Assembly: GCA_963971285.1 (NCBI GenBank) | Contig: OZ020254.1 | Location: 2,976,001-3,040,000 of the forward strand | DNA: 64,000 nt | From: Astropecten irregularis | Taxonomy: Eukaryota; Echinodermata; Asteroidea; Paxillosida; Astropectinidae | Direction of reading: 5' to 3' | In this document: in pieces, positions 17,501 to 61,907 of the stretch | Numbering within the stretch: position 1 is the stretch's first letter | Layout of the letters: every line of letters begins with the position of its first letter | Program-made: the position numbers and the translations under genes | Notes under the pieces: generated by a model | Told to the model about the DNA's origin: nothing | Database searches by the model: none | The model's input: only the letters and a program-made list of their open reading frames with translations

Positions 17501-17699
17501 CCATAGAAGAAGAATTATAGTCTGGCATCCAACAAGGGATCGGGTTTTTAATTATTTAAGACGGGTCTGTTCTTAGACCTTGCAAGGCGTGTGACTCGAG
17601 AGTCTGAGCTCAGCAATGTCTTTATACGTATAGGGGAGGGTTGGTTAGATTCGTAAAGAGTAGAGAAAGGCTAGAAACTTGGAAAGTTACGAGACATTA

Positions 17700-18067
17700 T
17701 TAAAGGTAGTATCATACTTTGGTAAGAAACCCAAACAGAAATGTTCACAGATTTACCTATAACTGTCATGGTATGAAGATGGTGATGGTAGAAACCGATA
17801 CCGTTAAACTCTTTCCCCCTGAAATGGTGTTTTTATCAAGAAATTAGTCAAACAACGACCGAAAATCTTTTTGATCTTTTAAAATATCAAAAATAAAAGA
17901 GAAAAGACTTAATAAATACTGTGGCTGTTTTACATCGTTTTATCAAAAAGTGGGCACCGTATGTGACTGAAATTTTCACAGATGACTGTTACTGTACCTG
18001 TCTTGATATTTTTGCCCATGAATCTGTATTTCTTTGATAAAAACCAAAGTATGATTTTACCTTTTAA
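17700..18067 (+). mobile_element. Family 1 MITE, complete
   Basis: TTAAAGGTAGTATCATACTT at the left end and CCAAAGTATGATTTTACCTT plus TTAA at the right, with the standard interior. It lies in the first long intron of gene 1. Confidence 0.85.
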
Positions 18068-18725
18068 AAAAGAAGTTACCACACGATTGTTTTACCCCAA
18101 GGAGACGCACAAACAGTATCATATGATATGGAAGCATAAAGTGCAACTGTTGTTCATGATGATATGGTACGGAAGACGGAGAGTTATTTTACAAATGGAT
18201 CACATTTCAGCTGACATGAAAGACTAGACTCCAAAGTTCCGATGCTCGTATATCAGGAAAGGTTCGCGTTGCCTTCAGCTTGAGTCTTTATATACCGCAC
18301 CAACAATGCAAGACCTAAGAAAAGGCCAAGAGGGCAAGGAAAAACATTCATCTTTGCTTTAACGGAAATATATGACGGTGATTATTCAGGAGGCAAAGCT
18401 AGCTTCTTGTAGTTTGACATTTATGAATTTAATAGTCTTCGGCTGCCCCGGTACTTGAATACTAATTTGAGTTTCCTGTTACACAGTATATCAGGTTTTT
18501 CCTTTCCACTTCGCTGGGTATTTAGTTGCAGAGCTACTTGATATCATTTTTATTATGACCATCGTACATTTATCTAGTATTCATTGCTCAAAAGGCAATG
18601 GCGTATTACGTTACCATCGGAAACATTAGTCTCTGTTTTTCAGCAGTCAGGGTATGTTACTCCTTAATCCAACAAAATTGATTAAGCTTCGTGCTCTGAA
18701 AAATTTAAAAACAAATACTGGTGAC

Positions 18726-18995
18726 CGTCAAATAACCTCAAGGGAAACTGACTGGTTAATTTTAAGTCATTGAAGAGTGAATAAAGGAAAATTGACTGAA
18801 GCAGGATTCGAACCAGCGACCACTGGAATACCGTACTGGCGCTCTTACCAACCGAGATATCTAGCCGTAATGGTTTCGGTAATGGTCAATTATCTTTGCT
18901 CATTTGGCAGTCAGAAGCCATGAAACCACACACACACTGCCATATCCCAAGGATCATTGAAGATACGCGCAACATTCACAATGCTGCAACCTGAA
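18726..18995 (-). mobile_element. tRNA-derived SINE (type T), minus strand
   Basis: The minus-strand copy spans from GGTTGCAGCATTGTG through GTTTCATGGCTTCTGACTGC, a tRNA-like part (GGTTCGAATCC B box) and the full tail to CAGTCAGTTTCCCTTGAGG. It shows that the flanks of the 37705 foldback are SINE tail sequence. Confidence 0.75.
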
Positions 18996-20858
18996 AAAAC
19001 TGTACATGGGGTCAAAAGTTTTGAATGAATGATTACGTTTTGCGCTGGCAAAGTTCACAATTCAAATTGCACCTTTAATTTGGGGCCTTCGATCTTTTCA
19101 CTTCAGTATCTTTGAACTTATTGGAGGTAAAGTGGGCACTCATTGTTGTTTGATCCGAGGACCATAGCGAGAGAGAGAGATAGAATGGGAGGGAGAAATA
19201 AAAAATAAAGTAAAATAAAATTATCGCCTCTTGAGTTTCCACTTTGCCCGCTGGCTACTCTCGACGGCAATTCAATTAAAGGATTTTTTTTACTTTGGCC
19301 GCGAGGCACGCGGGGGAAGGATCAGAAAAAAAAAGCTTTGCTTGGAATTTTATGATAACCCCGTCATCACCTCCTGCCCAATACGCTCCAGCACACTGAG
19401 AGAACTTCTTCTTCTTCTTATCAATAGGGAGGCACGGCTCTAGACTACATGCAATATAATATCTGGTCGGAATCACGCGGCGAGGACTTTCGGCTTGTCA
19501 TAGTGCACTTGGCATTTTTTTTCAATCTTTTTATTTTCTTTTTCAATCGAGACAAAGAAAAGATCGAAGCGTAGCAGGGAGAGAAGTTAACGCCGTGTCT
19601 GCCCCCGTCTAATCACAGGGACAGTCCCGCTGGCATATTTATACCCTAGCACGTCCTTGTCCTGCATGTGAAACTGCTGATTTGCTTTGCTCATGTTGAT
19701 GGAATTTTCAATTTCTTTTTCCCCTTAACTATCTCTTTCCACCCTTCACTGTCGCTGTTTTTTCTAGTCGCCGGCGTGCGAATTCGGTACACCACTTTCT
19801 TTGTGAGGTGAATACCCGAACGGCCGTGCATGCCAGGGGGTATTTTGTAGACTGAATGTGATGGGTAGTGTTGTCTGTTCAATTCGGCGGGCCAGCCACG
19901 GCACTGTTTGATGTCCTATCGCAGTGCGTTTGCCTCTTGATGTATCTTTGAACTGCCACGATATATATAACCGATCTCTCGTGGTGCTATATATCGCCTT
20001 GAGATTGTTTATACACATTATCTATACTGTGTCAGTCCCTACATCATGGATGCGTTTCCATGGTGATATTGCTGTTTTGTCATGTCGATTGTGTCAAGTG
20101 TCCTAGCTGATTGGTTAATTGGTTCTTGGAACTCTCTCTACAGTGTGAATACTTCCACAGACATTGTTTATTTGAACCCAGCCATTGCAAATGTAGTTCT
20201 CTGCATTCGTCGTTCGGGCACTTTACTTACTAATTGCTTCACAGTGAAGAGTGGGCCCCATACTAAAGGGGAAATGGTGTCCTGCCACGACCTGCCTAGA
20301 TTCTAGTGTTTGTCTTTCTTTTCCTCTACACTAAATGGTGTGTAATAATTAATCAGAAAGTTGACTGGTGCCCGCGTTTATCAATCAATTTCAGGGGTTG
20401 TGTTTTAGATAGTGTGTCTTCTAGCCGTCTTGTGGTATACCTGCGATGTTTGAGATATCTGATTGGTTGTTTACTGTAGACGTTGCCTCTGCTATTGACC
20501 AATCGGTGCGCGCGTTAGTTCGTTTGTAAATAATCATTGAAATTGTGTACGGGGCTCCAAAACGGACCAGTGTGACATCCTTTCTCAATTGATTAGCATA
20601 TCACAATGTTACCTGACAGGATACTATGACGGGTAGTGTGAAAATTATCATAATAAAAACAAACAAAATGCATCTTAAAGGTATATAATGGTGCTAAATG
20701 ACCGAAGAGAATTGTTTCGTTCCTGCGTGAAAGCATACTGATTTATCCAAAGTTGATATCAACACATTTCTTCACGAGAATTATTTCTCTCTGTTTCAAA
20801 TGGTCATGTCATCATAGAGAAAACAGCAGTCTGATAACCCTTAAACTGCGTCAGCTTA

Positions 20859-21229
20859 TTAAAATACATGATTTGTAATGGTCACAGAGTAGCACTCCAA
20901 CTTTGTCTTTAATAATAAAACAGCATGTACATGAAATAATAAAACTGTGAAAATTCGAACTCAATCGGTCATCTGACTCACGAGAAAAGGGCGAAAACAA
21001 GACTCATTTGTTCTTATCAAACATAACGAATAATTTTGACCCTACTCCGAGATCAAAACCGTGTTTTTGGTCATTTTTTGTTTACTAATTTCTTAACAAA
21101 TACACCACTTCAGACGGAAATAGTTTAACGGTATGTTCCTTTCAGCACCATCGTCATATCTTGAAAGTTATACGTAATTCTGTGAACATTTCTGTTTGGG
21201 TATGTTACGAATCCTGTACTGTACCTTTA
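20859..21229 (-). mobile_element. Family 2 MITE, minus strand
   Basis: TTAAAATACATGATTTGTAA at one end and gaatcctgtactgtaccttt at the other; interior gaactcaatcggtcatctga. The last TTAA is mutated to TTTA. Confidence 0.8.
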
Positions 21230-21417
21230 TTGATTCGAATAAAATGATGACGTTCTCTTCCGAAAACTGTGGTTGAGTTGCCTTCGTAACTTCGTAACAT
21301 AGTCAGGTCATCAAGTGACGTACATGTAATTAACTTAATTGTATCCACGCTCTTCGTCACGTGTCGTCCTTTTTTTAACCTTTTTATCATTTTCCTTTTC
21401 TTTTTCTTATCTTTCAG

Positions 21418-21462
21418 AATGAACGTGAACAGACACTGAGCAGTTCAATATGGCTGACACTG
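21418..21462 (+). CDS. Gene 1, 45-bp microexon (loop D)
   Basis: The exon reads NEREQTLSSSIWLTL in phase 0 at both ends. It is flanked by a strong acceptor (long pyrimidine run ending atctttcag) and the donor gtaagg. It aligns with the family pattern D-E-K-N-Q-x-L-x-T-N-x-W-L, whose tryptophan lines the complementary (loop D) side of the agonist pocket. A separate 45-bp exon for this segment is a hallmark of nAChR genes. It is too short to stand out as an open reading frame but is fixed by position, length, phase and splice sites. Confidence 0.93.
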
Positions 21463-22799
21463 GTAAGGACGTTTACAACAAACTTGGTTGTAAATTTGCT
21501 TTATATTTGTCGATCTTCTTTATCTGGATGGGACCTAAAACAACTGAGTGTTTTACACAGTGCAAATACAGTACACGTCAAAGGAGGGCAAATATTTACC
21601 TAAATATTGCAAGCCAAGTCAATTTTCCTTTGGCGGCTTTCCTACTTTATCTTTGTGTGTGTTTTTTTTTTCTCGTGGAGTTCCGCCTTCATTCTTCACG
21701 AGATCCGTTCCACCATAGACAGTCACTAAAATATTTACACCCACTGCATACAGGCTGCGGACAGGCTGGTTCAAGTTGCCCTTGACCATATTTTGACACG
21801 GTCCCAGCGGTAAACATATTTTTTTCTCCCAAATGCCAGCCAACGATTTTCTGCCATGAAAAATATACAAACATTATAAAAAAGACAGCAGCTTGCGAAG
21901 GCACGTCAGCGGAAGCCGAAGACTAAATCTAGTTTCAAGGTTTCTCGATTTTTCTCTCTCTCTTTTAAATCCAGCGCCTGGATTTGAGTATAAGCATCAC
22001 TTTGGTTGAATTTTGTGGTGATTATTATAGCGTGCAATAAATGGACTGCTGTGAAAGATGAGTGTGTGTTTGTACTGGAGGCCCACGTGCATGTACGTGT
22101 ATAAGCTCAGAAGATTACGGTGGATTCAGAAGCACCACGCTGGTTGCCTAATTATCAGATCAGACAACCTATCACACCTATTAGGCCTAATCTGCATCCA
22201 GGGTCCCTGCTAATGCTCAAAAACAATTCAAGTCCGAGGCATTTTAGCCCTTGCACTCCGTCGCTCGCACCGCCAATCACCTCAAGGGGATCATATCCAC
22301 AGCGTATATAAGCCATTACCATGAGACGTACACTACCTGGGGTTTATTGGCGAAGTGGATCCCTTGGTGCATCCGTCTTCACTCGTGTCATCCGTGGGGG
22401 AGGAGAGGGGAGAGTGAAGGGGGATGTTAGGATGCAGAATATCTAGAGATGTCTTCCCGGAGTTGTATAGGACATTTATAAATTGCGCAGCTACTATATG
22501 AATATACTCTACTGCGCATTACAAATAAATAAGTTTTCCCGGTCATTTATTTGGCAAATTGGCGGCCAATTTCATTTTTATGCATTTGTGTTGACGTGAT
22601 TTTTGGATCCTCGGTGGAAACCGTCACTCGATTTCACTTTGATGCATCCGTATTTATATAGCATTGCATTCAATTAAACTTCAACAGTCGTTCAGTTAAG
22701 CCATGCAAAATCGGCATTAAAATTTAAATTGTCCGCTCATTTGCCGAAAATGACAGGGAAAACCATCCCTGGTCATCGGGCCATAATTTTCATTCCTGA

Positions 22800-23000
22800 A
22801 ACAATCTCAACTCCCTGGGGAGTATACAGGCCCGGGTACCGTATCCAGTGCTACCCATTTGGGTGAAGAGGAGCAATATGACAAAGCGTCTTGCCCCACA
22901 AGGACGCAGGCACCATAACCCATGGCTGGATTCGAACCCAGAATCTGTAGATTGACCACAAGATTTTGGGTTCAACACGCCAGATCACTAAGCCTGTACT
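22800..23000 (-). mobile_element. tRNA-derived SINE (type U), minus strand
   Basis: The minus strand has TTAGTGATCTGGCG and GGGTTCGAATCCAGCC as A and B boxes. The tail GGGGCAAGACGCTTTGTC then ATTGCTCCTCTTCACCC resembles tails of SINEs widespread in marine invertebrates. Confidence 0.65.
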
Positions 23001-23560
23001 CCATGCTTATAAGTTGAATTTATTCGCAGTGAATTGCCAATCTCCATCACTTAAATCATCCCCAGGATGACCGCTAGGCTACAGACTGGGGGTCTCTCCT
23101 ATTCCATACAAGTCTCACTCGTTTCTGCTCTAAAATGCCTTCCTCAACTCCGTCGAAATTCTTTCCTGCATTATACATTGCAGTCATTGCAGTCACTGCC
23201 TAACTGCCATGTAGCCTACACATTCTTCTCAGTTCAATCCATGCCACGGTTCAACTCTTCTGGGTCATTGTTGAACATGTCAATCAGTTGTACTATTTAA
23301 ATTATTATCGTCTGAAATGAAACCAGATGTTGGTAGCATTTCTACGAGACTTGATACACTTTTTGAAAGTTCAGAGATTCGAGAATTGCCTCTCTTGAAT
23401 TTATTTTCCTGTCCACAATACTTGGCAAAGATGCGTAACACATATCAAACTCTATACATTCCCCTTGCCGTGTAGAATTCGCCAATCCATTCGCACTTGC
23501 ACAGGTGGAGCTTACTTCTCAATGGTTAATTATTTTGGTCTAATGGGGGACCCCTATAAC

Positions 23561-23575
23561 GACGCCCTCTGTTGG
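23561..23575 (-). promoter_or_regulatory. CTCF-like motif
   Basis: The minus strand reads CCAACAGAGGGCGTC. In a gene 1 intron. Confidence 0.3.
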
Positions 23576-24037
23576 CGCACACATGTCATTATAACATATG
23601 CAATGTCACAATATCGCAAGGATTTATCGGATTCCTTTCAGTTTAACACTTGAATTGATTGGAATTTTGTATGCTTATCAATTTACTTCGTTCACCGTGA
23701 ATTCACAGAGTATGTTTTTGCCTTGAAGAAAAATGGTTGCCTTAAAGAAATGGCGTCTCTTTGGCCTACAGCGCCCTCTCGAGGCTACAATAGTAGTGTC
23801 ACTACCATGGGTGCATTCGTTTATCTAACACGGTTCAGCCCTTACTGGGAATGGTCGTGTTTTACTGCACAAAAAAAGGAAGAGAATGGGGGACGAGGTT
23901 GACTGGTGTCGACCAGGGGTATCTAAACGAATGCACCCAATACGTACATTTTACAACTTCCTTTACCTTCAAAATTTACACCATGTTTACTTCTCACTGC
24001 AATCGACTTTCATTATTTTTTTTTTATCCTATTACAG

Positions 24038-24147
24038 TATTGGAAAGACGATTACCTGATGTGGGACCCTGACGACTACGGCGGGGTTTACATGTTCAAA
24101 GTACCGTCGGGGGAGATCTGGCTACCTGACATCTACTTCTATGAAAA
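24038..24147 (+). CDS. Gene 1, 110-bp exon (loop A, WxPD motif)
   Basis: The exon encodes [20 protein letters not shown] and then a segment ending [10 protein letters not shown]. It carries the W-D-P-x-D-Y-G-G pattern and the WxPD motif conserved across Cys-loop receptors. The acceptor is a 30-base pyrimidine-rich tract ending attacag and the donor is gtgagg. The exon runs from phase 0 to phase 2, and its last two bases (AA) join the T of the next exon to make Asn, giving the family's 'Y-x-N' end of loop A. The 110-bp length is the same as the corresponding exon in vertebrate nAChR genes (family knowledge). Confidence 0.95.
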
Positions 24148-24461
24148 GTGAGGACTTCCCAGTTGATTTCATGCATGATTACCAGTGTTCTTGAATAACG
24201 CCTAGATCGTAAATTTGACCAAGAATGGTCATTAATAATTATTAGAACCATGAATAATATAAAAAGAAATGGTCATCAACATTTCGGCATCGTGAATAAT
24301 TACGTAGTATCATCTTGGATAGTAAATAGGCTTGTGAATAGAGATTCGTCATTCTCCCTCCATTTTTATTATAAAAAAAACCCGCTATTAACATCTTAGG
24401 TCAGTTTTTCTTTTGTATATAATTATTTTGTTCCAGAGTTTGTGTGTATTTTCCTAGTGTG

Positions 24462-24526
24462 TTAAAGGTACTATCATTTTTTGGTGTCATACCGAAACCG
24501 ACTAATCTTCACAAATTTACCTATAG
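24462..24526 (+). mobile_element. Family 1 MITE, left-end fragment
   Basis: TTAAAGGTACTATCATTTTT then cataccgaaaccgac and tcacaaatttacctatag; the match stops where the 97-bp structured element begins. Confidence 0.65.
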
Positions 24527-24530
24527 ACCT

Positions 24531-24627
24531 ATTGCCGTTCCCCCCGCTCACCCTCCCCCGAGGAACCGGGCAGGTTCTTGAGGTGGAGATTTCCGCACGT
24601 TCCACCGATAAAATAAAGGTGGATACT
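24531..24627 (-). repeat. 97-bp structured dispersed element, copy A
   Basis: Reverse complement of 55521-55619 at about 90% by eye. Read on the minus strand it holds three consecutive stem-loop candidates: TCCACC/GGTGGA, GCGGA/TCCAC (one pair lost) and GAACC/GGTTC. Confidence 0.75.
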
Positions 24628-24633
24628 AGGAGA

Positions 24634-24988
24634 TTAAAGGTATATCATACTTTGGTAGCATACTGAAACAGAAAGCTCCAAAGATTTAATTTCAACTTAC
24701 AGGGTATAAAGATGGTGATTGTAGAAACATACCGTTAACATACCGTTCTGCCTGAAATACTGTATTTATCCAGAAAAGAGTAAAACCAATGACCAAAAAA
24801 CAATGTTGATCTTTTTTAAGATCCAAAATAACAATGAACAGATTTTTTTTTAAATACTGTGGCTGTTTTCCACTGTTTTCTCAAAAATTTGGTATCTTCT
24901 GTATCTATAAACTGTATCTTCCTTGATATTTTTGCCCCAGAATCTGCATTCTTTGACAAAAATCAAATGATACGCCTATTACCTTTAA
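24634..24988 (+). mobile_element. Family 1 MITE, complete
   Basis: TTAAAGGTATATCATACTTT at the left, eroded right end caaatgatacgcctattacc plus TTTAA; standard interior. It starts 6 bases after the 97-bp structured element. Confidence 0.8.
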
Positions 24989-26917
24989 CTAGAAGTCAGC
25001 TTGCCTCAGAAGTGTCCACCTCGAGAAAATATTAAAGTCTAGACATTTCCTCGAAGAATATATTTAGACTGAATCCAATAAGACATAGGGGGAGAGAGAG
25101 AGAGAGTGAGAGAAGGGGTGTGCTTGGTAGCTACGTCAGCAAACAGTCAATGATTGCCAGGGTCTGTCAAAACAGCTTAATAGAATGCCGCTATACGATC
25201 GAAGACCAAGCCACCTCCTCTTCTCCCGGGAAAGGAGGAAAATCATTAAGACACTCCCCCACCTTGGAATTCATACATTGGACGAACCAGCTGAACAATT
25301 TTGTCTTTGGTTGAATAATCACAGCCAATTTCAGATATCTGGGCCACGTCAGCACAGCTAGAATTGTAGAAAAGAAAACTCCTTCATTTTTTTGGATGCT
25401 GAATTGGTTTTGGGTGCCGGTAACGAGGATTAATGTTTGTGAAGGCTTTTCGTGTTTCGGAAAACATACCAGACTTATCAATATGGGTGATTTTTCCTTG
25501 GTAGTACGCTGGGAAGTTTTTTTTCATGGTCAATTGAAATATCATACGTAAGCCTCATCACCGTATACTATGATAGAAGCAATCAAACTGAGATCAGGCC
25601 GGGTGTGTATAAGATCTTCTCCAAGGAGAAACGTTGTGTGTTGTACATTTCGATCTTTATTTTCCCGCCCAGCATTTGCCAAATCATTGACGGTACGTTG
25701 AAAACCAACCATTGATTTTTGGCATCTGAGGCTCACTGAAACGCTTGGTATAGCAACATTCCAGTTGGTTTTATAAGCTCCGAGAAGCAATTGTTTTATG
25801 CAAATAGTAAATTCCCAGAATGTTTCATGGAAATGTTTTGCAGTATCAAGTTTCGGAACATGATTTTGTTTTGCAAGTTGCAATTGCTATTATAAGTTGG
25901 ACATCAACTAGACATTACAGTATTAGACATCCTGTCAATGATTTTGTGTTATAGATTCCATACGTTATAAAGCCTTACATGTTAGTGCCCCAGATGTTGA
26001 ATCGAATCTGTCCATAGTGTTTCCTTCCCTTTACATATTTGTTTAATTGTTAACTGGGAAAAAACAGCTTGTGTTGGAGACTACTACTCTCCTGTGATTG
26101 GGTATCGGTAGATTTCTATTTATGATCAATTAAGTTGACACGGATTCGCAATTTGGGTCGGTAATTACCGTCCCCCGGTTAAAATCTGCGCCAATTTAGC
26201 TGGCCTCGGCAATTTGTTCCGACAGATTCCCCCCCCCCCTTTTTTCCCCAGCCTCGTCACACGTTAAACGCACAGACGAACTGGACGTGTGACCAATGAT
26301 AATGTTGGCGCGCAAAATGCCCGCGGTTAAGTACCGTGTGGTTTATAAATACGCCACACAACAAGACATTGATGTCTAGACCATAAACATTGCGCGCAAA
26401 TAAGTCCCGCGCAAAATTGTTGTGACAGCCGACAGTACAGGACGGAAGGGTGAACTGGTTTGCCCCTGTCCTTTCCGTCAACGCCTTGCTGAACGTCCAC
26501 TAAAGTGGAAACAGTATTTTTGTTTCATTCTACATCTCAAATTGTTATTGTTATTATTATTTTCTGTCGTACTAGGGACTTAATTGCCTTAACGCTTCAT
26601 TTGGTGCAGTGGCGGCTCACGCACCTCGCCGTTTATCAACAAAATCTTCAAGTGTTTCCTTTTTACCTTTTTTTTTTCCAAATGCCTTTTTTACAACAAC
26701 AACTGCTGGAAGCGTTGTGAAACATTTCAAGTGTGTTTAGGAGCAAGACATAGTTTTATTTAAACAAAAATGGAGCCCTTAGGCAGACGATTATGGTGCG
26801 GGTAAAAAAAAAAGTATAACTCGGTCGTACGATTATGAAATGAAACCAGATCACCTTTGCCTTAATGGAGCATGGTGTAGGAGTGGTCATTTGAATGGTT
26901 TGCTCTTGGTTACATTA

Positions 26918-27090
26918 CATGATTGGTAACATACCCAAACATAAATAGTTCACAGATTTACTTACTTTCTGGATATGAAGATGGTGCTGGTAGAAATATA
27001 CCGTTAAAATATTTCTGACTGAAATAGGTTTTATTATTTTATGTACATGCTGGATAAGTGTGAGTACTGTTATGTGACCTTTACCAATCA
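26918..27090 (+). mobile_element. Family 2 MITE with large internal deletion
   Basis: gattggtaacatacccaaac and gaagatggtgctggtagaaa at the left; tatgtacatgctggataag and gacctttaccaatcatta at the right. The middle about 200 bases are gone. Confidence 0.7.
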
Positions 27091-29899
27091 TTACACACAC
27101 ACACTTTATTTTCCAACTGTTGACACCACAGAACTTAAATAAACTAGATAGCACACGCGTTCACGCGCGCCATTCAATGTGCACAAACTTTTCATTGACA
27201 CACTAAGAAGTGCGGCGCGCCCTCTGTTGTCTGTTAAACGCCAGTTTGTGAAGCAACGAATCGTCACGAATATCGTTCCCAGAATGAATCCTAGTTTAAG
27301 TGCAAACTGACCCAACAAATGCCGGCCTACCCGCTAGATGGTCCACAAAACCTGGAATAGCGTCAATTGGTAATAATGCTGGCATCCGAGGGCGCTCAAT
27401 ATCGAGCCAAAATAGTAGGAATTTACGACTCGAGTCAAGACTGTGAACAGTCTGGAGTCTGGTGTTATACATCTGATTTATTGAAGACAGTACATCCTCC
27501 CAACTTCGTCCCCACGTTCACAGGTGATATGATCTTTAAGATCCCCGGGGTAGTTTGAGCCAGAGAGGGCTACAAATGCAGTTTTTAATTCATTAGTGGG
27601 GAAGACACTGAATGTGCCCTAAGATTCCACTTGCTCAATTATGGTCAACCATTAGCTCCAACTCAATGGTACGGTGGTTAAAAACACTGGAAACGTGTCT
27701 GGGACTCGGTATAATGACGAATACGAGGCGTCACCCTTGACTTGCCGTTGCAAACAGAGAAGGAATAAGTTAGTCATCAACACTTGCTCATCACGTTTTC
27801 CTAATGTCTCCCACAACCCCTACCACCTCCCCTCCCCGCTCTCCCCACACCCTCGGGGTAAAGGCGCTCTGATTTTTATCTAAGCTCGTGAGTTAAAGTT
27901 AAGATGTCAGTTTCTCCTTAGCGACCCAATTTTTTTGGCGCCCGCCGGCGAAAACAGTGAAAATCGTTTCTATAATGACCAACCCCCCCTCATCTCGAAA
28001 CACTCCTACATAACAACAAAACATCGATGCATTACTTAACCCATTTTAACAGAAGGCCGTAAAGACATTTCCGAAGGTGTGATTTTTTTTTTCAAAAAGA
28101 TTATCTTCTTATTTTGTTTTCATTTTTTTTGCATACCTTGGGATACTGAAGCTAGATTGATTACTTTGTTTCTTTATTTCATTAAGGAAGACATGTTTGA
28201 ATAATTTTCTGGCAGACTATAACCCGAAGCCATTTAGGGAGAGAAAGCTGCCCCAGATATACTACAATACAATCAAGGGCAAACATCTCACGATGTTTAT
28301 TATTATTTTTTTTTTCACTGTCAACTTTCTCATTGCTGTTTGAAAAGAGTGTCCAAAAAACACATCGGTTTTGCTCGTTAAAACATATGCCAAGAAAATT
28401 GAAATGATTTTGTTTTTGTGAGCGGAAATATTTATCTGTAGAAAAATTTACCCGAAAATACTGTTTTAAGCACCAAAACTCTTGGTAAATAAAATCAGTT
28501 TGCCAGACAAATGTTATTTTCATAGCAACAATTGCCAAATACAAGTCAAAGGCAGCAAACATCACATGAATATTTGGTTGGTAATTCTGATTGATGAAGG
28601 AAGACTTTCCATGCTTAAACAAATTGTGTGCTTGCAGCTCTGAGAAATTGGCCCCTGTTTATCAACACTTTCACTTTCACCTCACCATTCTATTAACTGT
28701 ATTTTTTAGAAGCATTCATTAATGATTTCCGAGTCTAGAATGCAAATTCTCTTTGACATCAGAGAGTGACTTTTTAAGCTTTATTGAGACGCCATCCCCC
28801 AAACAAATCTGCAAGCCTCGATCTAAGAGTCTCCGTTTAATATGTTGTGATCGGTCATTGCCCAAACAGTCCTCTGAGAGGTATTACCCAAAGAAAAATG
28901 GAGCGCCGAAATCGCGATGAGATAAACGGTACCGATAACAGTTGACAAGACAACAAATCCAATATTTAGCAGTCGCCGGTTGCCTGGACAGTCAATGCCC
29001 CTCCACTCCTAGCTGTCAGCCATATCCGTGCCTCTAACAAGAACTCAAGTGTTTGTGTTCCGAGACCCGATAAGTCCTTTGCGTTGTGCTCCACTAACCT
29101 TTTCTTTTCATGCAGTCTGACCCAAAATGTGATTTGTTTTATTCGTATACAAACCGGCCTGTTATAGAGAAAAAAAGGAAAGAAATTGATAATCACGGTT
29201 TATCTGCCTCTAAGCTTGGGTCTTAAATGGTTTACTCTGGCGAATTCCGCCCGCAGTTGTGAAAACATGAAATGCACGGAAAGTACGTGATGTCTCCCTC
29301 CGTTCGTACCCCGTGTTTCCCCCCCTCGACATCAGGCATCCGTACCGCCTGACAAAAAGCGAAATTACACTTTGGAGAGATGTCATCAGTTGGGGTGCCC
29401 GGGTGAGGGGATGTATGGTTGTTGATGTCTTATAGAACAACCAACAGTCATGGAGAAGGGATCATCACACTCTTATGATGCATAGTCAGAGTTATTATCA
29501 TTGTGTACGCTGCCCATTAACCTTTTGGCGCCCAAAATGTAACCTTGTCAAAGTAACAGTAACCTGTGAGCGTTTGTCTTAATGCTCAGCAGGAAAGAGC
29601 AGGGTGGTTTTAGGAGTGAGCGCTCTTCGACTTGGAGTGCGTTTTCTTTGGCTTGGGAGTTGATGACGGTGTTGATCGTCAAGATGTTTTGGTTGGCCAA
29701 GGCTCACTCAGTTGGGGATCCGTGATGGGACTCGCTGTGGGGAAACCAACGACAACAATCTCTGCTCTTTTGACCTTTTCATGGGAGCTTTTTTCATCTC
29801 CTGTCCAAACATGAAAAGGGATTTCTCAATCAGGGAAGTTCACCTCGTATAGGTCTACTGTCTCTTTAGCCTTCACGTTTGTACTTACAACATTATAGG

Positions 29900-30189
29900 T
29901 TTCCATTATCAAGGAAGATACAGTAACAGTCATCTGTGAAATTCCCAGTGTAAACGTCCACGGTATTTAAAAAAAAAAATTCACCGTTATTTGTTATCTT
30001 CCTAAGATCAAAATGTTATTTTTTTTGTCAATGGTTTTACTCTTCTCTGGATTAATACACTGAGCATTTTAGGCAGAAACATGTTAACGGTATGTTTCTA
30101 CCATCACCATTTTCAAAACAAGTACGTTATAGGTAAATCTGTTGAGATTTCTGTGTCGGTATGCTACCAAAGTATGATAGTACTTTTAA
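29900..30189 (-). mobile_element. Family 1 MITE, truncated at its left
   Basis: Reverse copy ending CCAAAGTATGATAGTACTTT plus TAA. Interior from atcaaggaagatacagtaac onwards is present; the other terminus is missing. Confidence 0.75.
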
Positions 30190-31666
30190 CAGTGCGTACA
30201 CATTGAATTAAGCTATTGACGCGACGGAGCAAATTTCACAATTTCCACGCAGGTGAAAAAAATGATAAAAACATTCACGCTGAAACAACATTTTCCTCTT
30301 CTACAGGGCTTGTAGGCCTTATCAGAAGCAACTCCCTCCCATGATATTTGATCCGACTTTAATCAATAATATTAAAGAGCGTGTCTATAAGTCGAACAGA
30401 CATCGCGGTTGAGATGGTTTGAGGATATAGCGAAATTAAGTTTTTACCAAACGTTGCATGTTTGCAAAAAAATCGAAACCAGCAATGTTGTTGAAAAAAA
30501 TTTAATTTGGGAGGTCGGATGTCTAATTTTACAGTGGACTGATTGAGCAGTTTCTGATTGTTGAGTTATCGTCGTGAAATATGCATACTTTCGGTCTAAA
30601 TACAATTAAGCAGAGGGATATGGTAACATTTCTCTACACGGTGTTCAATGGGGTTCATTGCATTCAGAAATCAGAATTAAGGTCTTTGTCCGTGGACACT
30701 GGGAATAACTTTGCTCAAATCCTAGTTGCCCCCTTGACATTTGGGTGAAGCGTATAGCCTGTCTCTCTTCATTCCGTGACACATTGTTTGCAGTGACAGA
30801 GGTGCTCGCCTCCGCCCGTACTTCTCAACAGCCCAAGGAGCATCAACATCCATTTTGCATTGAAGTGCATTCTCTGGTTGGATCAGGCCGGTTTTGTTTC
30901 TGTTTTCGGCCGAGGTTTTTCTATTCTCCTGGTTGTACTCTGGCGTGGAGTTTTTTTTTTAAGTTGTGCTCCGTGATGTCGCCGTTTTATCATCCTGCCT
31001 GCAGATGTCCACGAAGTCGACAGCCTGGCAACTGATGATTTTTTTCTTCTCTTTTTACCATCTCCCTACTTCTTCTTCTTCTTCCCCCGTGCCCCCGGGC
31101 GTCGTTTACCATGAAGGACCGCTCACGGTAGGAACTCGGGGTTGGGTTCAGGGCATCTTTATAGGTGCCGGTCTTCTTTGTCGGCGGCTCAGGCTTTTGG
31201 CCGTGTGACGTTGATGAAACGGAGGGGAAGGAGAGACAAGCGAAATCGATGGTCGGATTGGGGGGTTTAGGAGAATGTGGAGTGATTTCCCCCGACTCTT
31301 CCTTCCAAGTGCCGTTGAACTTTTGCAGAATGAATTTCTTTTCTTCCTCTTTGAGGTTGCTCTAAAACTCGTGGTGGATATTTATTTGCTACTCTTGCAC
31401 CGTTGGAGTTATTCGCATCAGTTTATGAGTTTATACCTCAAACGAGCGCTCAGGTCCAAGCTGATAAATCTGTTATCTGATTTAAATTTAGATCTTTTTT
31501 AAGACTGCAGACATCAAATGTCCCTCAATGGCCAAGTATTATTACCACAGGAATCCTGGAGGGACAACGGATTTGATAAGGATACCAATTGCTTTAAAGA
31601 TTGATATACGTCTCCCATTTACCTCTTTAAAGTCTAGACAATGAGTCGTTTTTTCCATAATTATCA

Positions 31667-31925
31667 TCTTTGAGCGATCCCCCCATGTTCTGTTTCTCAA
31701 GTTGCAGCATTGCTGCCTGTATCGATAAAATGATCCTTGGGATGTAGCGGTAACTATGTGTGTAGTTTCATGGCTTCTGACTGCCAAACGAACAAAGATT
31801 ATTGACTATTATCGACACCGCCAACATAGGGCTAGATAGTTCAGTTGGTGTACGGTATTCCAGGGATCTCTGGTTTGAATCAACTTTTCTTTGTTCAAAT
31901 TCACTATTCAGTTGACCTTAACTGT
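31667..31925 (+). mobile_element. tRNA-derived SINE (type T), degenerate
   Basis: A copy of the same element as 37887-38128. It shares the head TTTGAGCGATCCCCCCATGT, the middle GTTTCATGGCTTCTGACTGC, an eroded tRNA-like part and the tail caacttttctttgttc. It sits just before the gene 1 Cys-loop exon. Confidence 0.7.
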
Positions 31926-32022
31926 GTTGCTTCTGTTTGTTTTTAATCTTTTGGGTATAAAGGAAATACACTACATCATATTTAACGATACGTCTTCATT
32001 TGATTTGCCTCCCAATCTGCAG

Positions 32023-32225
32023 TGCCGAACTACAGACGCGGAACTTCCTCCTTGGTCCCGTGGTCAAGATCTTCAACGACGGTAAGATCATGTGGGGAGC
32101 TCCGGTCAACTTCAAGGGCTACTGCCTGCTGGACGTCCGCTACTTTCCCTTCGACCACCAGGTCTGCGAGATGAAATTCGGTCCCTGGCAGCACAACGGC
32201 AAAGAGATCATTATGCAGGGACAAG
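32023..32225 (+). CDS. Gene 1, Cys-loop exon (203 bp)
   Basis: The exon contains the diagnostic Cys-loop: GYCLLDVRYFPFDHQVCEMK, with two cysteines 13 residues apart and the invariant FPFD core that contacts the membrane end during gating. Downstream is GPWQHNGKEI: the loop B tryptophan is present, but the following tyrosine seen in many alpha subunits is His, preceded by Gln. The acceptor is cccaatctgcag (phase 2) and the donor is CAAG|gtatta (phase 1). Codon use is markedly GC-richer than the flanking intron. The length is one codon more than the matching exon of gene 2. Confidence 0.95.
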
Positions 32226-32434
32226 GTATTATGAAGCTTAGTGTCCTTCAGTTTAAAGATGGCGTTACATTTTGTATTTTGTACTTTCCTATGGTTGCGC
32301 CAGAGGTCTCCCAAATGGGCTCCATTGGAAATCATAGAACAATCAAACTGTGACGTCATTGACACAGACCTATTTAAACACAGGACGTTCTTAAAGAGTT
32401 TGTGTCTTCTGTCGCTTCTCATTATATTCACTTC

Positions 32435-32681
32435 TAAGCCCTTTCCAAGCATTGGCCCCGACTCAGGCTCCGGCTTCGGCGCTGTTTCAAATTATCATTG
32501 AAAACATTGGTTGTGGCTTTTCATTGAAGTTGCATATCTATTTTCATGATCCAGATAGAGTATGTACTTCCAAACCGTAGCCAAACGCCTCTATTTTGGC
32601 ACGCGTTATTTTAGAATGGATCCACGAAATGGAGCCGAATCTGGAGCCTGAGCCGGAGCCAAGGTTTGGAAAAGGGCCCTA
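32435..32681. mobile_element. Family 3 MITE
   Basis: Ends taagccctttccaag...actcaggctccgg and ctggagcctgagccgg...tttggaaaagggccct are inverted repeats. Interior is in the opposite orientation to 3538-3779 (agcctaaacgcc-type, ctattttggcacgcg). Confidence 0.7.
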
Positions 32682-32700
32682 GAGTCGAAACAATGGTGCG

Positions 32701-32716
32701 CAGCGCCACCAAGCGG
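32701..32716 (-). promoter_or_regulatory. CTCF-like motif
   Basis: The minus strand reads CCGCTTGGTGGCGCTG, close to the CCGCNNGGNGGCAG form of the CTCF core. It lies just outside a family 3 MITE in gene 1. Confidence 0.35.
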
Positions 32717-33408
32717 CAAGTTGAAGTAGTGGACAGTCTCTACTAGAGAGACCCACTTAAGTTCGCAATTTGTGTTTCTTAAAAGGCAAAAAAGGGGGAA
32801 ATAGTGCACATGGATCGAAATTTTATAAGAATGAAGTTGGTGGAAGTTAATAAAGAAATCAATAGAGGGGGAGGGGGTTCTACTCCGCCCTAGCCTCGAG
32901 CAGCACGTTAACAATACTTGTTTATTTTGGAGAATCAAATTGATAGAAACAATTTCAGGGAATGCGACATACCTCATTAGTTCGGATCGGCAGCTGGGTT
33001 TGTGTTCCCGCGCAATCAGACCGTGTCGATTTTAAAGGTGTACATGGGTTATTTTGTTTGTTTCTCAGTGTCAGCAGATTAATCAATAAAGTGAATTGTG
33101 TGAGCTTCGGTGATCAAATAGCACAATGTATTGATTTGCTTGCTTACGTATGTCACGTCTGTAAGCCCGGTTAGTGGGGTTGATATACCCCGCGGGAGCG
33201 ATCGAGCGCGGCCGGCCGGGGCCTTGGGGACAAAACAACGGGGTGAGATCTAGGAGCACCCTGCCGCGACAACACTTATTAGGGTGCTTTAGATTTGTGT
33301 GAACGTGGACCTCGTTCACGTCGACCACAACATCGTGCTGAACGTCAAAACTATACTTTGTGCGTCCTCGACTCACTGGGACAATTAAATTCAAAAAGGG
33401 TGCTAAGG

Positions 33409-33542
33409 TTAAATCTTCCCTCCTCTAAACGTGTCCGCTTGGACACATTTACACGTGGCCATGTACAGTTGTCCGGGGACACATTTACCTGGAATGGGTT
33501 ATTCTGTCACCCGGACACATTTAGAGGCAGGACAGATTTAAC
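33409..33542. mobile_element. Short MITE/foldback with GTTAAATCT ends
   Basis: ttaaatcttccctcctctaa and, reversed, ttaaatctgtcctgcctcta are inverted termini, extended by gtgtccg/cggacac. 134 bp in gene 1 intron. Confidence 0.75.
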
Positions 33543-34064
33543 ATTTACATGGGCTGTACATAACAAGGGTTACATCTAAGCACAGATTTGACGCTACACC
33601 GATCAACTTTACAATATAAAGTACATATTTTGCAAATAATATTGTTTGATCATTATGGACTCTCCGATTTAAGCAAATTATTTGCCCCGAGGGGGCGCTA
33701 CGAGGGCCCCGAAACATTAGTCGATATATTCGGGGTGCAGATCTGAGAGAAAATACATATACTTTTTTATACTTTTTTTGTACATATACTTTTTTATGAA
33801 CAAGTTAATTTCCAAAAGAATCAATGAAAAGGTTATTTGGGTATAACTTAATGCCCTGGTGTACCTCCCAAAGATGGTGTCGACACAGCGCCCCCATTTG
33901 ACCAACGATATGACATGCTTCAATACCGTCAACGTTTGGAAAGTGCAACCATAACACCCCAATGACAAGTTTATGAGATTTTTCGCTATGTGTATTAACG
34001 GTATTTCGGTTTCAAAATAAAATTTTCTCCATTCCCTCCTCTCTTTCTCCTTGACAAACTAAAG

Positions 34065-34391
34065 GTGACCAGTCTGTGTTCAATAGCAACGGCGAGTGGG
34101 ACATGACCGGCATCGAGACCACCAACAACGTGGAGTACTACCCTGACGATCCAGGCGTCCCCTTCACCGACTGCAGCTTCACCATCAAGTTCTCGCGTCG
34201 CTCCGAGTTCTACGTCTTCAACTTGATGATGCCCTCCTGTCTGATCTGCCTCCTGGCTGCCCTGGCCTTCCTGTTACCGCCCACGTCCCAGGGCAAAGTC
34301 AACCTAGGCGTGACCTTCCTGCTGTCCATGACGGTGTTTCTCATGATTGTGGCCGAGTCCATACCTCCCACCAACCAGGTGCCGGTGATTG
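34065..34391 (+). CDS. Gene 1, exon for loop C, M1 and M2 (327 bp)
   Basis: After the split Gly codon the exon reads DQSVFNSNGEWDM, then loop C NNVEYYPDDPGVPFTDCSF with a single cysteine and no adjacent pair. A basic SRR leads into M1 (FYVFNLMMPSCLICLLAALA) with the conserved P-x-C. The pore helix M2 starts after PPTSQGK and runs NLGVTFLLSMTVFLMIVAE. Numbering Lys as 0', there is Asn at 2', Thr at 6', Leu at 9', Val at 13' and Glu at 20', but Gly at -1' and Gln at -2' where cation channels have Glu and Gly. Phase is 1 at both ends; acceptor acaaactaaag, donor ATTG|gtaagc. Gene 2 has an intron inside the equivalent stretch, between loop C and M1. Confidence 0.95.
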
Positions 34392-34775
34392 GTAAGCCTG
34401 TACAAACATTAATCCTTCGCTGCCGATGTTATTATTAACAAGTTCCTTAATAACTGTCAGTTCTCATAGTCTGAGGCACACGCGAACATTTTAACTTTTA
34501 AAGTCAAGATGTTATTTTGACATCACACTCCAAATTGAAATTAAAGTAAAGGTAGGGGCCACCATGCAATCTCTTCTGTGAGCATGTGTGGTTGTGATCG
34601 TTGTCAGGACGAACCTCACACTCACACAGAAGAGATTTACATGGTGTCACCGCAAACATACCTTACTTTAGTACTTCCATCATGCATAGCTTATTTCTCC
34701 AGATTGATGTTGCTAGAAGACGTCTTCCAGTTGTTTTCATTTGAATCATAAATGTATCTCTATATTTTTACTCAG
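34392..34775 (+). other. Gene 1 last intron (384 bp)
   Basis: The shortest intron of the window, separating M2 and M3 exons. One third of it is a MITE with long terminal inverted repeats (34541-34672). Confidence 0.9.
34541..34672. mobile_element. MITE with about 55-bp inverted ends in gene 1 last intron
   Basis: taaagtaaaggtaggggcca then atgcaatctcttctgtgag, and the reverse of ctcacacagaagagatttac then ccttactttagta, pair over about 55 bases with few mismatches. Confidence 0.75.
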
Positions 34776-35359
34776 GTCAATATTTTGCCGCCTGTATGAT
34801 GCTGGTATCCCTCTCGCTGGTGCTCAACGTCTCCGTAGTAGCCATCTTCAGCCATGCGTCCATGGGCGAGCCGGTGCCCGAGTGGATCCGCACCGTGGTC
34901 CTGGGCGTGCTGGCGGCCGTCGTCCGCCTCAACTCCGAGGAGATCCGCGACATCCGACGGAACAAGTTCCACCGCAAGAGCCACGCTCACAAGGTCCTGA
35001 CCAAGTCCGGCGGCGGCTCCAAGTTTACCTCGGTACCCATGAAGGAGACTACCAAGACCCACGGCGTGAACTACTACATGGACTACGTGCCCAACTCGCA
35101 CAACGGCCACGATGGCGACAAGCAGAAGCGGCACGGCGAACAGTTCGAGGCCCTCACGCGAGAACTCAAGAGAATGAACGAGACTCTGAACAGCATGAAG
35201 CTGGGCGAGAAACAGTTCAGCGCGGACCAGCGACGCAACTACCGGGAGTGGGTGCTGGTTTCGCGGGTGCTCGACCGAACCTTTCTCGTACTGTACCTCA
35301 TCGGCAATGTGTTGTCGGTGGTTTTGCTCGTCTTGCCGGTCGTTGTTCTAGAGCACTAA
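34776..35359 (+). CDS. Gene 1, last coding exon: M3, cytoplasmic loop, M4, stop (584 bp)
   Basis: The exon begins with the split Gly then QYFAACMMLVSLSLVLNVSV (M3), preceded by the acceptor tatttttactcag. The M3-M4 loop is short, about 135 residues, with a His/Lys-rich part (HRKSHAHK), Gly/Ser runs and a Tyr-rich patch (VNYYMDYV). It ends in a charged, probably amphipathic helix (EQFEALTRELKRMNETL), where nAChRs form the cytoplasmic MA helix. M4 is VLDRTFLVLYLIGNVL plus a Val/Leu-rich tail ending in LEH and TAA (35357-35359). The conserved 'VLDR' before M4 is present. An overlapping 239-codon frame in this exon is only a GC-rich shadow. Confidence 0.95.
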
Positions 35360-37886: not shown

Positions 37887-38128
37887 CCTCTTTGAGTGAT
37901 CCCCCATGTGCCGTTCCCAGGTTGCAGCATTGTTGCGTGTATCATTGAAACGATCCCTGGGGTGTGGCGGTGTGTGCGTGGTTTCATGGCTTCTGACTGC
38001 CAAACGAACAAAGATAGTTGACTATTGGGGTCACCACCAACATAGGGCTGGATGGCTCAGTTGGTAGAGCGCCTGTACGGTATTCAGGAGGTCGCCGGTT
38101 CGAATCCCGCTCCAGTCAATTTTTCTTT
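37887..38128 (+). mobile_element. tRNA-derived SINE (type T), best preserved copy
   Basis: The 5' unique head (TTTGAGTGATCCCCCATGTG), the block GTTTCATGGCTTCTGACTGC, then a tRNA-like unit at 38046-38118 with A box TGGCTCAGTTGGTAGAGC and B box GGTTCGAATCC, and matching ends GGCTGGA/TCCAGTC. The tail is caatttttcttt. The anticodon arm is distorted (9-base loop), so it is SINE-borne rather than a working tRNA gene. Unusually the tRNA-like unit is near the 3' end, not at the 5' end. Confidence 0.8.
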
Positions 38129-46970: not shown

Positions 46971-47557
46971 TCAGACTTGCACGAAAAAGACAATGAATGT
47001 TGCAGCCGACCCAGCGACGCACAGCAAAAAGAAGAGCCGATCTAAGACAATGGCTACTCGTTTCCACTCCGTCTGCACCCGTCTGGAATTCATCTCCACC
47101 TCGATGCTGAAGGTAACCTTCTGCATCTCTCGTAGGAGTGCCAGGTACAGAGCCCGGTTCCTGTGCATTGAGTCCCTGTTGTTCATGCCCTCGCCGCCTC
47201 CCGGGGCGGACGGCTTGCTCTGCGGTTCGGCGTCGTCGGCACCGCCGCTGCCCCCGCAGCCGTTGGAGACGACGCGGGAGCGCGAGGAGGTGTTGTTGCC
47301 CGTGCAGACCTCGGCCACAAGGCTCTTGGTCTCCCAGGATCGCAGCTCGTGGGCCAGCTTCTCCCCGATGGTTGGGCGACGCTTGGAGCGACTGCTCTCG
47401 GACGGGAGCAGTACGCGACCGATGCCGTGTAGGATGTACTTCTTGATCCAGGGCGGGACGGGCTTGCAGTCCGGTCCACGGTGGTGCATGTTCAGGACAG
47501 TCACGGACATACCAATGCAGATTGATATTAGGACCATGGTGCACGCAAAGTACTGAC
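46971..47557 (-). CDS. Gene 2, last coding exon: M3, cytoplasmic loop, M4, stop (587 bp)
   Basis: The split Gly is followed by QYFACTMVLISICIGMSVTV (M3) and the family motif LNMHHRGP, then VPPWIKKYILHGIGRVLL. The cytoplasmic loop is Ser/Gly/Pro-rich (NNTSSRSRVVSNGCGGSGG, then AEPQSKPSAPGGGEG) and ends in a charged helix (RALYLALLREMQKVTF). It then has EWKRVAIVLDRLFFLLCVAG as M4 and a short end in FFVQV before TGA (46973-46971). The acceptor is tgtctatacag. The exon is nearly the same length as the last exon of gene 1 (584 bp) although the loop sequences differ. It is the most GC-rich coding stretch of the window, so other frames also stay open over it. Confidence 0.95.
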
Positions 47558-47796
47558 CTGTATAGACAGCGTGTGAATCAGACAGAAACATGGATGAACG
47601 GAACCAAGTTGATTGGACAATTTATTAAGTGTGAAATTGAAAGGTAAGGGCGTTGCGTAATAGTTTAATACAGACAACGCCCAAGTTCCGCATTTTCTTT
47701 TCTTAGAGTTTACTGTATGCAATCTATATACAGTCTACGGTGCACCCAAGTGACCATCTTATCACCACACTAAACCTAAAGTGACCTTATTAACTG

Positions 47797-48374: not shown

Positions 48375-48744
48375 CAATATCTAACCATATTTGCACGTGT
48401 AATTGAAGGTAGTAGTTAAGTCTGCTTGACAATTGGTCTGTTTCCTGTCTAAATTGCGGACAATTTAAGTGAACCTGCTTTGATATCTACGAAATGGTGT
48501 ATATTAAACAAATATAATTCAAATCGGTAATCCAGTATGGCCCTAACATCCTTAAAAGCAGTCGTGATCGTCACAATTAAATTAGGCGCGAAATGCGATA
48601 CAAAAATGCAGTAGTGACCGAAAGTGGGCAACATGTAAAAGTACAGGACTATTGTAAACAATGTCTACAGCGGTTTATGTAGCATCTAGAATTACATGAT
48701 TGGAAACAAAAAACGAGTGGAGCACAAGACTATCAATGACTTAC

Positions 48745-48952
48745 CAATGACTGGAACTGTGCTGGTCGGTGGCATAGTCTCCGCAACCAGCAGCAGAAAC
48801 ACGGTCAGGGACAGCAACACCGTCACGCCCAGGCTAACCTTCTCGCCAGACTCCGGTGGCAGGAAGAACGTCAACAGCGCCACCAGCGACAGGAACATGC
48901 ACGGGATGAGCAAGTTGAAGAGATAGTACAGTGGCCGTCTTCGAAATAAGAC
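48745..48952 (-). CDS. Gene 2, M1-M2 exon (208 bp)
   Basis: The exon begins [20 protein letters not shown], the typical R-R-R-x-L-Y-Y entry into M1 with the conserved P-C. M2 follows: [20 protein letters not shown], then [13 protein letters not shown]. Glu at -1', Lys at 0', Ser at 2', Thr at 6', Leu at 9' and Glu at 20' are all canonical for a cation-selective nAChR pore. The acceptor is ccctgcag (phase 0), the donor ATTG|gtaagt (phase 1). Confidence 0.95.
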
Positions 48953-50098
48953 CTGCAGGGATCAGAGCAGTTAAAAAAAAAAAAAGAATACAGAAATCGG
49001 TGGATCTGTTTTTGTCTATTACTCGGAGAAGGCCTGTCATCGTCGATTTCACTGATGAAATCATCGTTTTTATATGCACGTCCTTATAGCAACATGAATG
49101 ATGTATTCATTTTGTTTTTTATCGTGTAATCACTTCAAAACAATGGGAGACTTTGGAGCTAGATGGGTCTTCAACTTGATAGATCACGTGCACAAAAATT
49201 AACGCGCGCATGCTCACAATTGCGCTAGCACACAAAGAGACTTCAGTCTGCTGCCGCCAACGTCTCAAAAGTCTCATATTACCACTCAGCCCGTGTGACG
49301 TCCGTGCTCAGCCCTCGATACAAGATAGAAGTATTCACCGCATGCAGTACTGTGATCTATTTTTCCCCAGTCACTATTGCAGTACCATTTTGCGCCAAGT
49401 ATAAAGTGGTAATCCAACCTCAATACATCAATATAGACGCACAGGCAAATATTTGAAACACGGTGTCACTCTCACATGCGGTAGCTGCTGGCCTTTATGA
49501 GACAAATATTTGACCCGTGTATATTGATGAATGCACGTACAGCACGTGAAAAATGCGTCGCACCGGCACAAATCCCGCGGGACTATGCGAGTTTTTGTGA
49601 GAAAAATCGAAATGGAACCGTGACCGCGCATACGGAATGGGCAGACGATTATTAAGTATAAAAGTATCCTGTGGACTTCCTGGGTTTATAGGCTGGCCAC
49701 GAATGCCAGTTCACGTGCACATAAAAGATGGGTTACATTATACCGTCAAATATGTCCTCAGGCTTGGATAGAAACAAACACCTTTCCATGAAATTAATTT
49801 CCAAGCCAGGAGTAAATGGCGACGAAAACTTCACCATACACTAAATTCAAGACCACCCTGCCACTGTTCATTATGAATTGATGAGACGATTTGCCTCCCC
49901 CTCCCTACGTTTTGAAGGAAAGGGGTGAAAGGACGTGACATGATTCCAAGAACGTCCATTGCAAAAACCCCAACAGATATGTTTTGTAACCACATTAACA
50001 GGAACAATTATAATTGAGTTTTTGAAAGTAACATGTCTAACATTTCTTGTTCCAAAGAAAAAATAATGTTAAACTCCTGTGCGCATTTATCACAGAGG

Positions 50099-51006: not shown

Positions 51007-51075
51007 AAATTTATCGAATAATGAAAGTAATTAATTTAGACAGATGCCCAACCTTGCTCCAGCGTATATACCCAC

Positions 51076-51197
51076 CTTGTACTGAACATCCGTGTATGTT
51101 TTACCGGGGTCGTCAGGGTACTCGACACTGTTATTATGTACATCCATGCGAATCATATCCCACTGTCCGTCACTATTGAAAACAGTTTCGTCACCTC
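51076..51197 (-). CDS. Gene 2, loop C exon (122 bp)
   Basis: The exon reads GGDETVFNSDGQWDMIRMDV then HNNSVEYPDDPGKTYTDVQYK, and ends in phase 0 at donor AAG|gtgggt. The acceptor cccctcag just before 51197 was chosen over an AG three bases further in, because it gives the same residue count as gene 1 across the junction. Loop C has no cysteines at all and one N-glycosylation sequon (NNS). The exon equals the first part of gene 1's 327-bp exon. Confidence 0.93.
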
Positions 51198-52432
51198 CTG
51201 AGGGGAAAAACAAAAAAAATGAAAAACGAAAAGTAGGGAAGAGGGAGGAAGGACAATTTAAATTCGGAGAGGCAAAAGAAATAATCGATAACCTATAGGC
51301 TATAATATTCAATCAATTGATCAATAATTTGGGGAAGAGTTGGATCGTTTCGGCGATTTTTGTTTATAGCAGTTTTGATAATGCTTGTTTATAATCAGCA
51401 TGCATTGGGGCATTACGTGCAACACATGCAAAATACTCAGGAGCGCCGGCTGGTAAAGACACCTTTGTTTTTTGCTTTTTAAGTGTAAGGAGTGCGATAA
51501 ATGTTAGGGTCGGCAAGAAAAAAATGCAAGCATAGCAATTTGAATCCAAAATATCCAGCTCATTAGGCCGAAAAAAAAATTGTTGTGTTGCCCTCAGCGA
51601 CCGACCTTAAAATGACAAAAATTTGGGGTCGGGATTTTTTTTTTCTCCGAGTCCTAAAGTATAAAAACTCACCATTTTTGACAGAAAATGAAAGATTTAG
51701 CAGTAAAAAAGCGTGTCTCCTCAAAACGACCCAAGACCGTTGATTTATAAGCCCTGGTGACCATACATCCTGTATTTATTCTTAAATGTTTGAATGTCGG
51801 CCCAAAAAAACCACAACAATTTCTTTTTGGCCTTATAAGAATTGCGGCTTGTGGAATATTGTATATAGATACATATATAATGAGCCCTAGATACACTTAT
51901 ATCACCAAAGTGCAGGGCTGAGTTCGATATTTACGTCAGATTGAAAAAAAGGGTTAATGCGTGCACTTTGAAGCGGCAATAATGACCCGTCATGCAACCT
52001 AGTTTTTCCCCCGTTTTTTTCACATGATTAGCTGACTAATTGCTTTGATTTCTGGTGGTGCATATTAACTGCCATCTACTTCAAGGAGTACATCAGGCAC
52101 CATTTCATGACACACAGCCTGCGGGCTTTTTAACAAAATAAGAAGCAAATACTCAAAAGCAAGATAACCACTGCAGGCGTACCGTAACATATTCCAGGTA
52201 TTGGTTTTCATGTAATTATTAGAAATGATCATGGTTAGTGTGGTAAAGCTTTTTTAGGAGGCTCGAGTGTGACCACAGCTAAAGCACTACATCTTGCGAC
52301 AATTTGTTTTATATTGTAACGCGCGCACATCACATTGGCAAAGAAAAATGCTTCCCGCGCTTGGGTATTAAAGGTCCGGAAAGGGCCACCGTATGTCTTA
52401 ATGCTTTGTGCCAAATGAATTCACGATGTCAT

Positions 52433-61800: not shown

Positions 61801-61907
61801 CACGTATAAAAAAGACGGTTTTTCCCTGCCAAAGGAAGAAAGAAAGAAAAAAACGGGCAAGAGATTCCTAGTATTAGGTCCTAAGCTCTTGGAGTGATTC
61901 TACCCAC

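Follow-up and report, generated by a model that had tools for sequence, protein, structure and literature searches.

A nicotinic receptor subunit gene of Astropecten irregularis with Gln-Gly-Lys in place of Gly-Glu-Lys before M2

The ring of residues at position -1' is one of the main determinants of charge in the pore of nicotinic acetylcholine receptors (nAChRs), and according to data from zebrafish muscle it is neutral residues at this position that set Ca2+ entry (PMC12646802). As reported in the part of that paper available here, exchanging Glu for Gln at the -1' ring of the delta subunit in slow-muscle receptors, which consist of alpha, beta and delta, abolished both the Ca2+-dependent shift in reversal potential and rectification; both properties were also lost upon a Glu-to-Gln exchange in Ciona receptors, for which the passage does not name the subunit. 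Natural gamma and epsilon subunits carry Gln at that ring position, with fast-muscle receptors having one such Gln each (PMC12646802), and for human and mouse the gamma and epsilon motif is given as GGQK (PMC5447003, Table 1). Departures from the GEK motif are also on record for Bombyx, where alpha9 and beta3 have STR and beta2 has TIR, with a selectivity that the authors call undetermined in the section available (PMC2045683), for Tribolium alpha9, which is described as being without GEK and its Glu (PMC2064938), and for one schistosome subunit listed with VKK (PMC9874803), whereas whitefly variants (REK and one other) are reported as altered in the motif but with the Glu kept (PMC4647701).

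Loss of the -1' Glu from nAChR subunits is already known, and the gene described here, gene 1, is a further form of it. A preliminary description of this DNA had placed the loss outside the known nAChR patterns, an idea that has to be given up, since gamma/epsilon GGQK and insect STR/TIR also lack this Glu. Within the literature searched, whose coverage leaves most subscription journals outside, we found no description of gene 1 or of any QGK subunit, and combining nicotinic with QGK gave unrelated material only. The echinoderm and sea urchin nAChR literature found there, including the accessible part of PMC12467107, shows expression work and no pore survey.

Gene 1 and its pore segment

The window, i.e. 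the whole 64-kb stretch of DNA that was analysed, contains gene 1 and, on the opposite strand, gene 2, which serves here for comparison:

14458–14577, plus strand: putative N-terminal piece of the gene 1 ligand-binding domain (LBD) (weak Pfam LBD match, E 0.31; translation)
24038–24147, plus strand: gene 1 exon from the loop D Trp to the loop A Tyr (Pfam LBD piece, 8.6e-8; spliced frame)
32023–32225, plus strand: gene 1 exon with the Cys-loop (C-x13-C, FPFD) and the loop B Trp (Pfam Neur_chan_LBD, 5.8e-17; splice sites, frame)
34065–34391, plus strand: gene 1 exon with loop C, M1, the M1–M2 loop and M2 (splice sites, spliced frame, Pfam and PDB hits for the frame around it)
34283–34285, plus strand: ACG codon, Thr at -4', the cytoplasmic ring position, which is Asp or Glu in most paralogues (codons, M2 alignment)
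34289–34294, plus strand: CAG GGC codons, Gln at -2' and Gly at -1', replacing Gly-Glu (window DNA, M2 alignment)
34295–34357, plus strand: M2 from Lys 0' to Glu 20', with Asn 2', Leu 9' and Val 13' (M2 alignment)
34776–35359, plus strand: last exon of gene 1, with M3, the intracellular domain, M4 and the stop (Pfam Neur_chan_memb, 2.8e-12; spliced frame)
46971–47621, minus strand: gene 2 frame with M3–M4 (Pfam, 1.3e-14)
48695–48961, minus strand: gene 2 frame with M1–M2, PPESGEK (translation)
51034–51312, minus strand: gene 2 frame with loop C (YPDDPG, no Cys pair; translation)
61903–62223, minus strand: gene 2 frame with the Cys-loop (translation, Pfam)

The Trp and Tyr at 24038–24147 and the Trp at 32023–32225 mark what we take to be loops D, A and B, respectively. 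A tRNA-Thr (GGT) gene lies between genes 1 and 2 (38046–38118, plus strand).

The four gene 1 exons from 24038 to 35359 have AG/GT borders and, when spliced, give an uninterrupted reading frame of 407 codons followed by the stop. A simple motif search of 14590–24037 did not find the short exon that is expected after the putative N-terminal piece at 14458–14577, and the model is therefore incomplete at its 5' end. The LBD contains the Cys-loop CLLDVRYFPFDHQVC with its C-x13-C spacing, the four-helix membrane domain is made up of the frames of the last two exons, and the frame with the pore matches Pfam Neur_chan_memb at E 3.9e-12; the closest proteins of solved structure are nAChR alpha7 chains in the PDB (E 5.5e-22). 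Judged by these domains, gene 1 is a nAChR subunit, i.e. a member of the Cys-loop receptors. Its last exon is divergent: ten places in the genome match it, itself included, and the best other one (on contig C17) is 28% identical.

The pore segment of gene 1, PPTSQGKVNLGVTFLLSMTVFLMIVAES, aligns without gaps to that of nAChR alpha7. Read from position 34277, it gives the protein PPTSQGKVNLG (CCG CCC ACG TCC for PPTS, CAG GGC AAA for QGK and GTC AAC CTA GGC for VNLG), with the codon of K0' at 34295–34297, so that QGK occupies -2' to 0', where GEK is typical of nAChRs, though not universal. The window DNA thereby bears out the preliminary description, which had reported QGK for GEK in gene 1 and had correctly set it against gene 2, where Gly-Glu stands in place of Gln-Gly. 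Its statement that K0', L9' and E20' are retained agrees with the M2 alignment, in which V13' is retained too. Its account of the loss itself was right about the -1' Glu but incomplete, as the -4' acid is gone as well, being Thr in gene 1; position 2', which had also gone unremarked, is Asn.

In principle, these codons might come from a faulty assembly or an unusual allele, or mark a pseudogene, given that QGK rests on one assembly and that the gene model lacks its 5' end, but we regard this as highly improbable. By codon count, converting the GGY GAG of the relatives into CAG GGC takes five or more base changes across two adjoining codons or else two compensating codon indels, and since the frame is still open, an assembly slip is unlikely. 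Moreover, GC3 in gene 1 is 0.816, compared with a GC content of 0.409 in 10,098 bases of intron, which suggests that the gene has been retained as coding sequence; together with the splice sites and a frame that stays open through all four exons to the stop, this argues against a pseudogene or a misassembly. Restoration of GEK by A-to-I editing is impossible, because GGC cannot become a Glu codon, and no second M2 exon with GEK was found for gene 1 in the 64-kb window (frames of at least 25 amino acids, E up to 0.01).

Pore variants and relatives in the same genome

Searches of the genome (475.7 Mb, 168 contigs) found at least 39 cation-type and at least nine anion-type (Ala-Arg) M2 segments, counts which are to be read as lower bounds. 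When all 39 cation-type segments found are aligned, -1' is Glu in 34; the five exceptions are gene 1 with QGK, L028 and L029 with GVVK, L021 with GRDAK and L033 with GRNSK, and among these gene 1 alone has no inserted residue. In just two of the 39, namely gene 1 and L029, the five or six positions before 0' are free of acidic residues. Asn at 2' is found in L022 and L029 as well, and Val at 13' is present in 24 of the 39 segments, including gene 1. As L028/L029 and L021/L033 form separate pairs in the tree (support 100 each), the -1' Glu has been lost in about three lineages. L028 (contig C29) and L029 (contig C12) are alpha-type subunits with the Cys pair, and their GVVK, which puts Val at -1' and contains an inserted residue, is like the GGQK layout of vertebrate gamma/epsilon; L021 and L033 (C10:7.63-7.65 Mb), likewise paired, are Cys-loop subunits in which M2 is preceded by GRDAK and GRNSK, respectively, and loop C lacks the Cys pair.

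In L013 and L044, an intron lies at or beside the GEK motif (exon ends being inferred), and genes 1, 2 and 3 have none there. A connection between QGK and loss of this intron was considered and dropped, because genes 2 and 3 are also intronless at this place, yet have GEK.

The tree comprises 43 rows, i.e. the 39 cation-type and four of the nine anion rows, all from this genome alone and with no vertebrate rows; it was built from Cys-loop, M1–M2 and M3 pieces where available, under LG+G4 with ultrafast bootstrap, and the placement of L041, L042 and L049 in it is not trustworthy owing to missing data and a very long branch. A split with support 82 separates gene 1, L013 (contig C17), gene 2 and gene 3 (L011, about 61 kb past the end of the window), together with the anion rows, from the rest. 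The branching order near gene 1 is weakly supported (48 and 59), and if the tree is rooted on the anion rows, the first of the cation rows to branch off is gene 1. Over 99 residues, gene 1 shares 54% identity with L013 and 53% with gene 2. GEK is found in L013, gene 2 and gene 3, and throughout the family Glu is the usual residue, so that QGK is by parsimony most simply taken to be derived in gene 1; with nodes this weak and gene 1 coming first under the anion root, it is how widely GEK is spread, and not tree support, that argues for this direction of change.

Loop C reads YPDDP in gene 1, gene 2 and L011 and YPDAP in L013, i.e. Asp-Asp or Asp-Ala replaces the Cys-Cys of alpha subunits (34065–34391, plus strand, in gene 1; 51034–51312, minus strand, in gene 2). 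The vicinal Cys pair (YxCC) that defines the alpha type is absent from all four, and they are therefore non-alpha subunits.

Oxidase genes in the same assembly include L059 (G000:C131), a heme-copper oxidase gene in a stretch read without TGA codons, which is probably bacterial (a contaminant or symbiont), and L061 (G000:C25:9951047), a partial copy of mitochondrial COX1 with seven TGA on contig C25 that probably represents an insertion of mitochondrial DNA into the nuclear genome. Reading AAA as Asn is a feature of the echinoderm and flatworm mitochondrial code, common to acorn worms. In the mitochondrial COX1 itself (L060), codons aligned with the best-matching PDB chain of COX1, 8ugh_4A, have AAA at Asn in four of four cases and AAG at Lys in three of three. 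The close resemblance of L060 to this chain makes a flatworm unlikely, so that the code points to an echinoderm or an acorn worm.

Possible consequences for the pore

On balance, gene 1 seems to encode a functional non-alpha subunit of heteropentamers with GEK-type alpha subunits, and we would expect such receptors to be cation-selective, to be less permeable to Ca2+, to show weaker inward rectification and probably to differ in conductance. Being non-alpha, the subunit should, as its family suggests, need alpha partners. Each copy that joins them would then take one negative charge off the intermediate ring (-1') and another off the cytoplasmic ring (-4'), and this dilution of the inner charge rings may in turn lower Ca2+ permeability and reduce rectification, with the pore presumably remaining cationic, given that V13' is retained and no Pro is inserted. 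Altered permeability, or a role as a minority subunit with GEK partners, had already been proposed in the preliminary description; it is a prediction, and one that fits the non-alpha loop C as well as the effect of the Glu-to-Gln exchange in zebrafish delta.

A quantitative estimate was obtained by re-coding the charge model of PMC5447003, as set out in the part of that paper available, and three published values (alpha7, alpha1 and alpha7 E237A) were reproduced. The modelled fractional Ca2+ current is 57, 21, 5.0, 1.0, 0.2 and 0.04% for zero to five copies of gene 1 among gene 2-like partners, figures that should be taken for their direction only, because they extrapolate from the 16 vertebrate receptors to which the model was fitted, several terms are non-significant (p = 0.08 for the -1' term and p = 0.82 for the constant) and the -4' charge acts in the model opposite to the -1' charge.

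It is very unlikely that gene 1 instead moves the pore towards mixed or anion permeability, which would be a route to an inhibitory acetylcholine receptor. Both inner acidic rings are gone in gene 1, and the passages available of PMC8011927 report that alpha7 E-1'A was inverted in its selectivity in simulation and that the same ring change made 5-HT3A slightly anion-selective in experiment. Experimentally, however, alpha7 E-1'A alone remained cationic, with selectivity unaffected; for anion selectivity, V13'T and the insertion of a Pro were required in addition (PMC8011927). Gene 1 retains V13' and E20' and has SQGK up to 0', without the Pro-Ala given as the mark of nAChR chloride channels in Lymnaea and schistosomes (PMC4055736, as far as available). 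An anion channel was thus rejected as the main reading, on account of the missing Pro-Ala and the retained V13'. In view of the 5-HT3A and simulation results, cation selectivity is nevertheless not assured for pores with many gene 1 copies.

Another question is whether constraint on the pore has simply been lost, i.e. whether gene 1 contributes little to permeation as an assembly, structural or low-copy subunit, with QGK being near-neutral drift and the current not notably changed. An uncharged -1' arose in two further lineages of the genome and the M3–M4 exon of gene 1 is divergent, as such a history might leave them, but we consider it unlikely: the remainder of M2 (9', 13', 20') and the frame are retained with a high GC3, the terminal branch of gene 1 (0.50) is similar in length to the branches of gene 2 (0.46) and gene 3 (0.48), and single-channel current is stated to be affected more by the -1' ring than by the other charged rings (PMC8011927). 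The branch length was dropped as a sign of drift for this similarity, and the Pro-Ser of gene 1 in M1 likewise, because Pro-Ser is present in other paralogues too.

More tentatively, the heteromeric subunit that we favour may be a case of two inner acidic rings neutralised at once, in which an invertebrate deuterostome has converged on the gamma/epsilon mode of tuning Ca2+ entry by subunit swap, possibly with poor charge selection at high copy number. A natural case that loses the -1' and -4' acids with 9', 13' and 20' retained would help to find out which of the two rings counts, and an independent one would show whether animals have repeatedly come to tune Ca2+ through non-alpha subunits.

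Comparison with other subunits lacking the -1' Glu

Within the same genome, L028/L029 and L021/L033 share an uncharged -1' with gene 1, but differ from it by a one-residue insertion each and, for L028/L029, by being alpha-type. The nicotinic chloride channels of Lymnaea and Schistosoma also lack the -1' Glu, but have the Pro-Ala that gene 1 does not (PMC4055736, in the part available). Gene 1 is like the divergent insect subunits in being a nAChR subunit that has lost both the GEK motif and its Glu, whereas the residues found there are others, Arg replaces Lys 0' in Bombyx and the phylum is a different one. With the gamma and epsilon subunits of vertebrate muscle, it has in common that it is non-alpha and uncharged at -1'. 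These have Gln at -1', one inserted residue and Lys or Gln at 20', while gene 1 has Gly at -1', Gln at -2', no insertion, i.e. not the GGQK layout, and a retained E20'. Since gene 1 is closest to GEK paralogues of its own genome, in a tree made of this genome's rows only, its loss of the -1' Glu is probably independent of that in gamma and epsilon.
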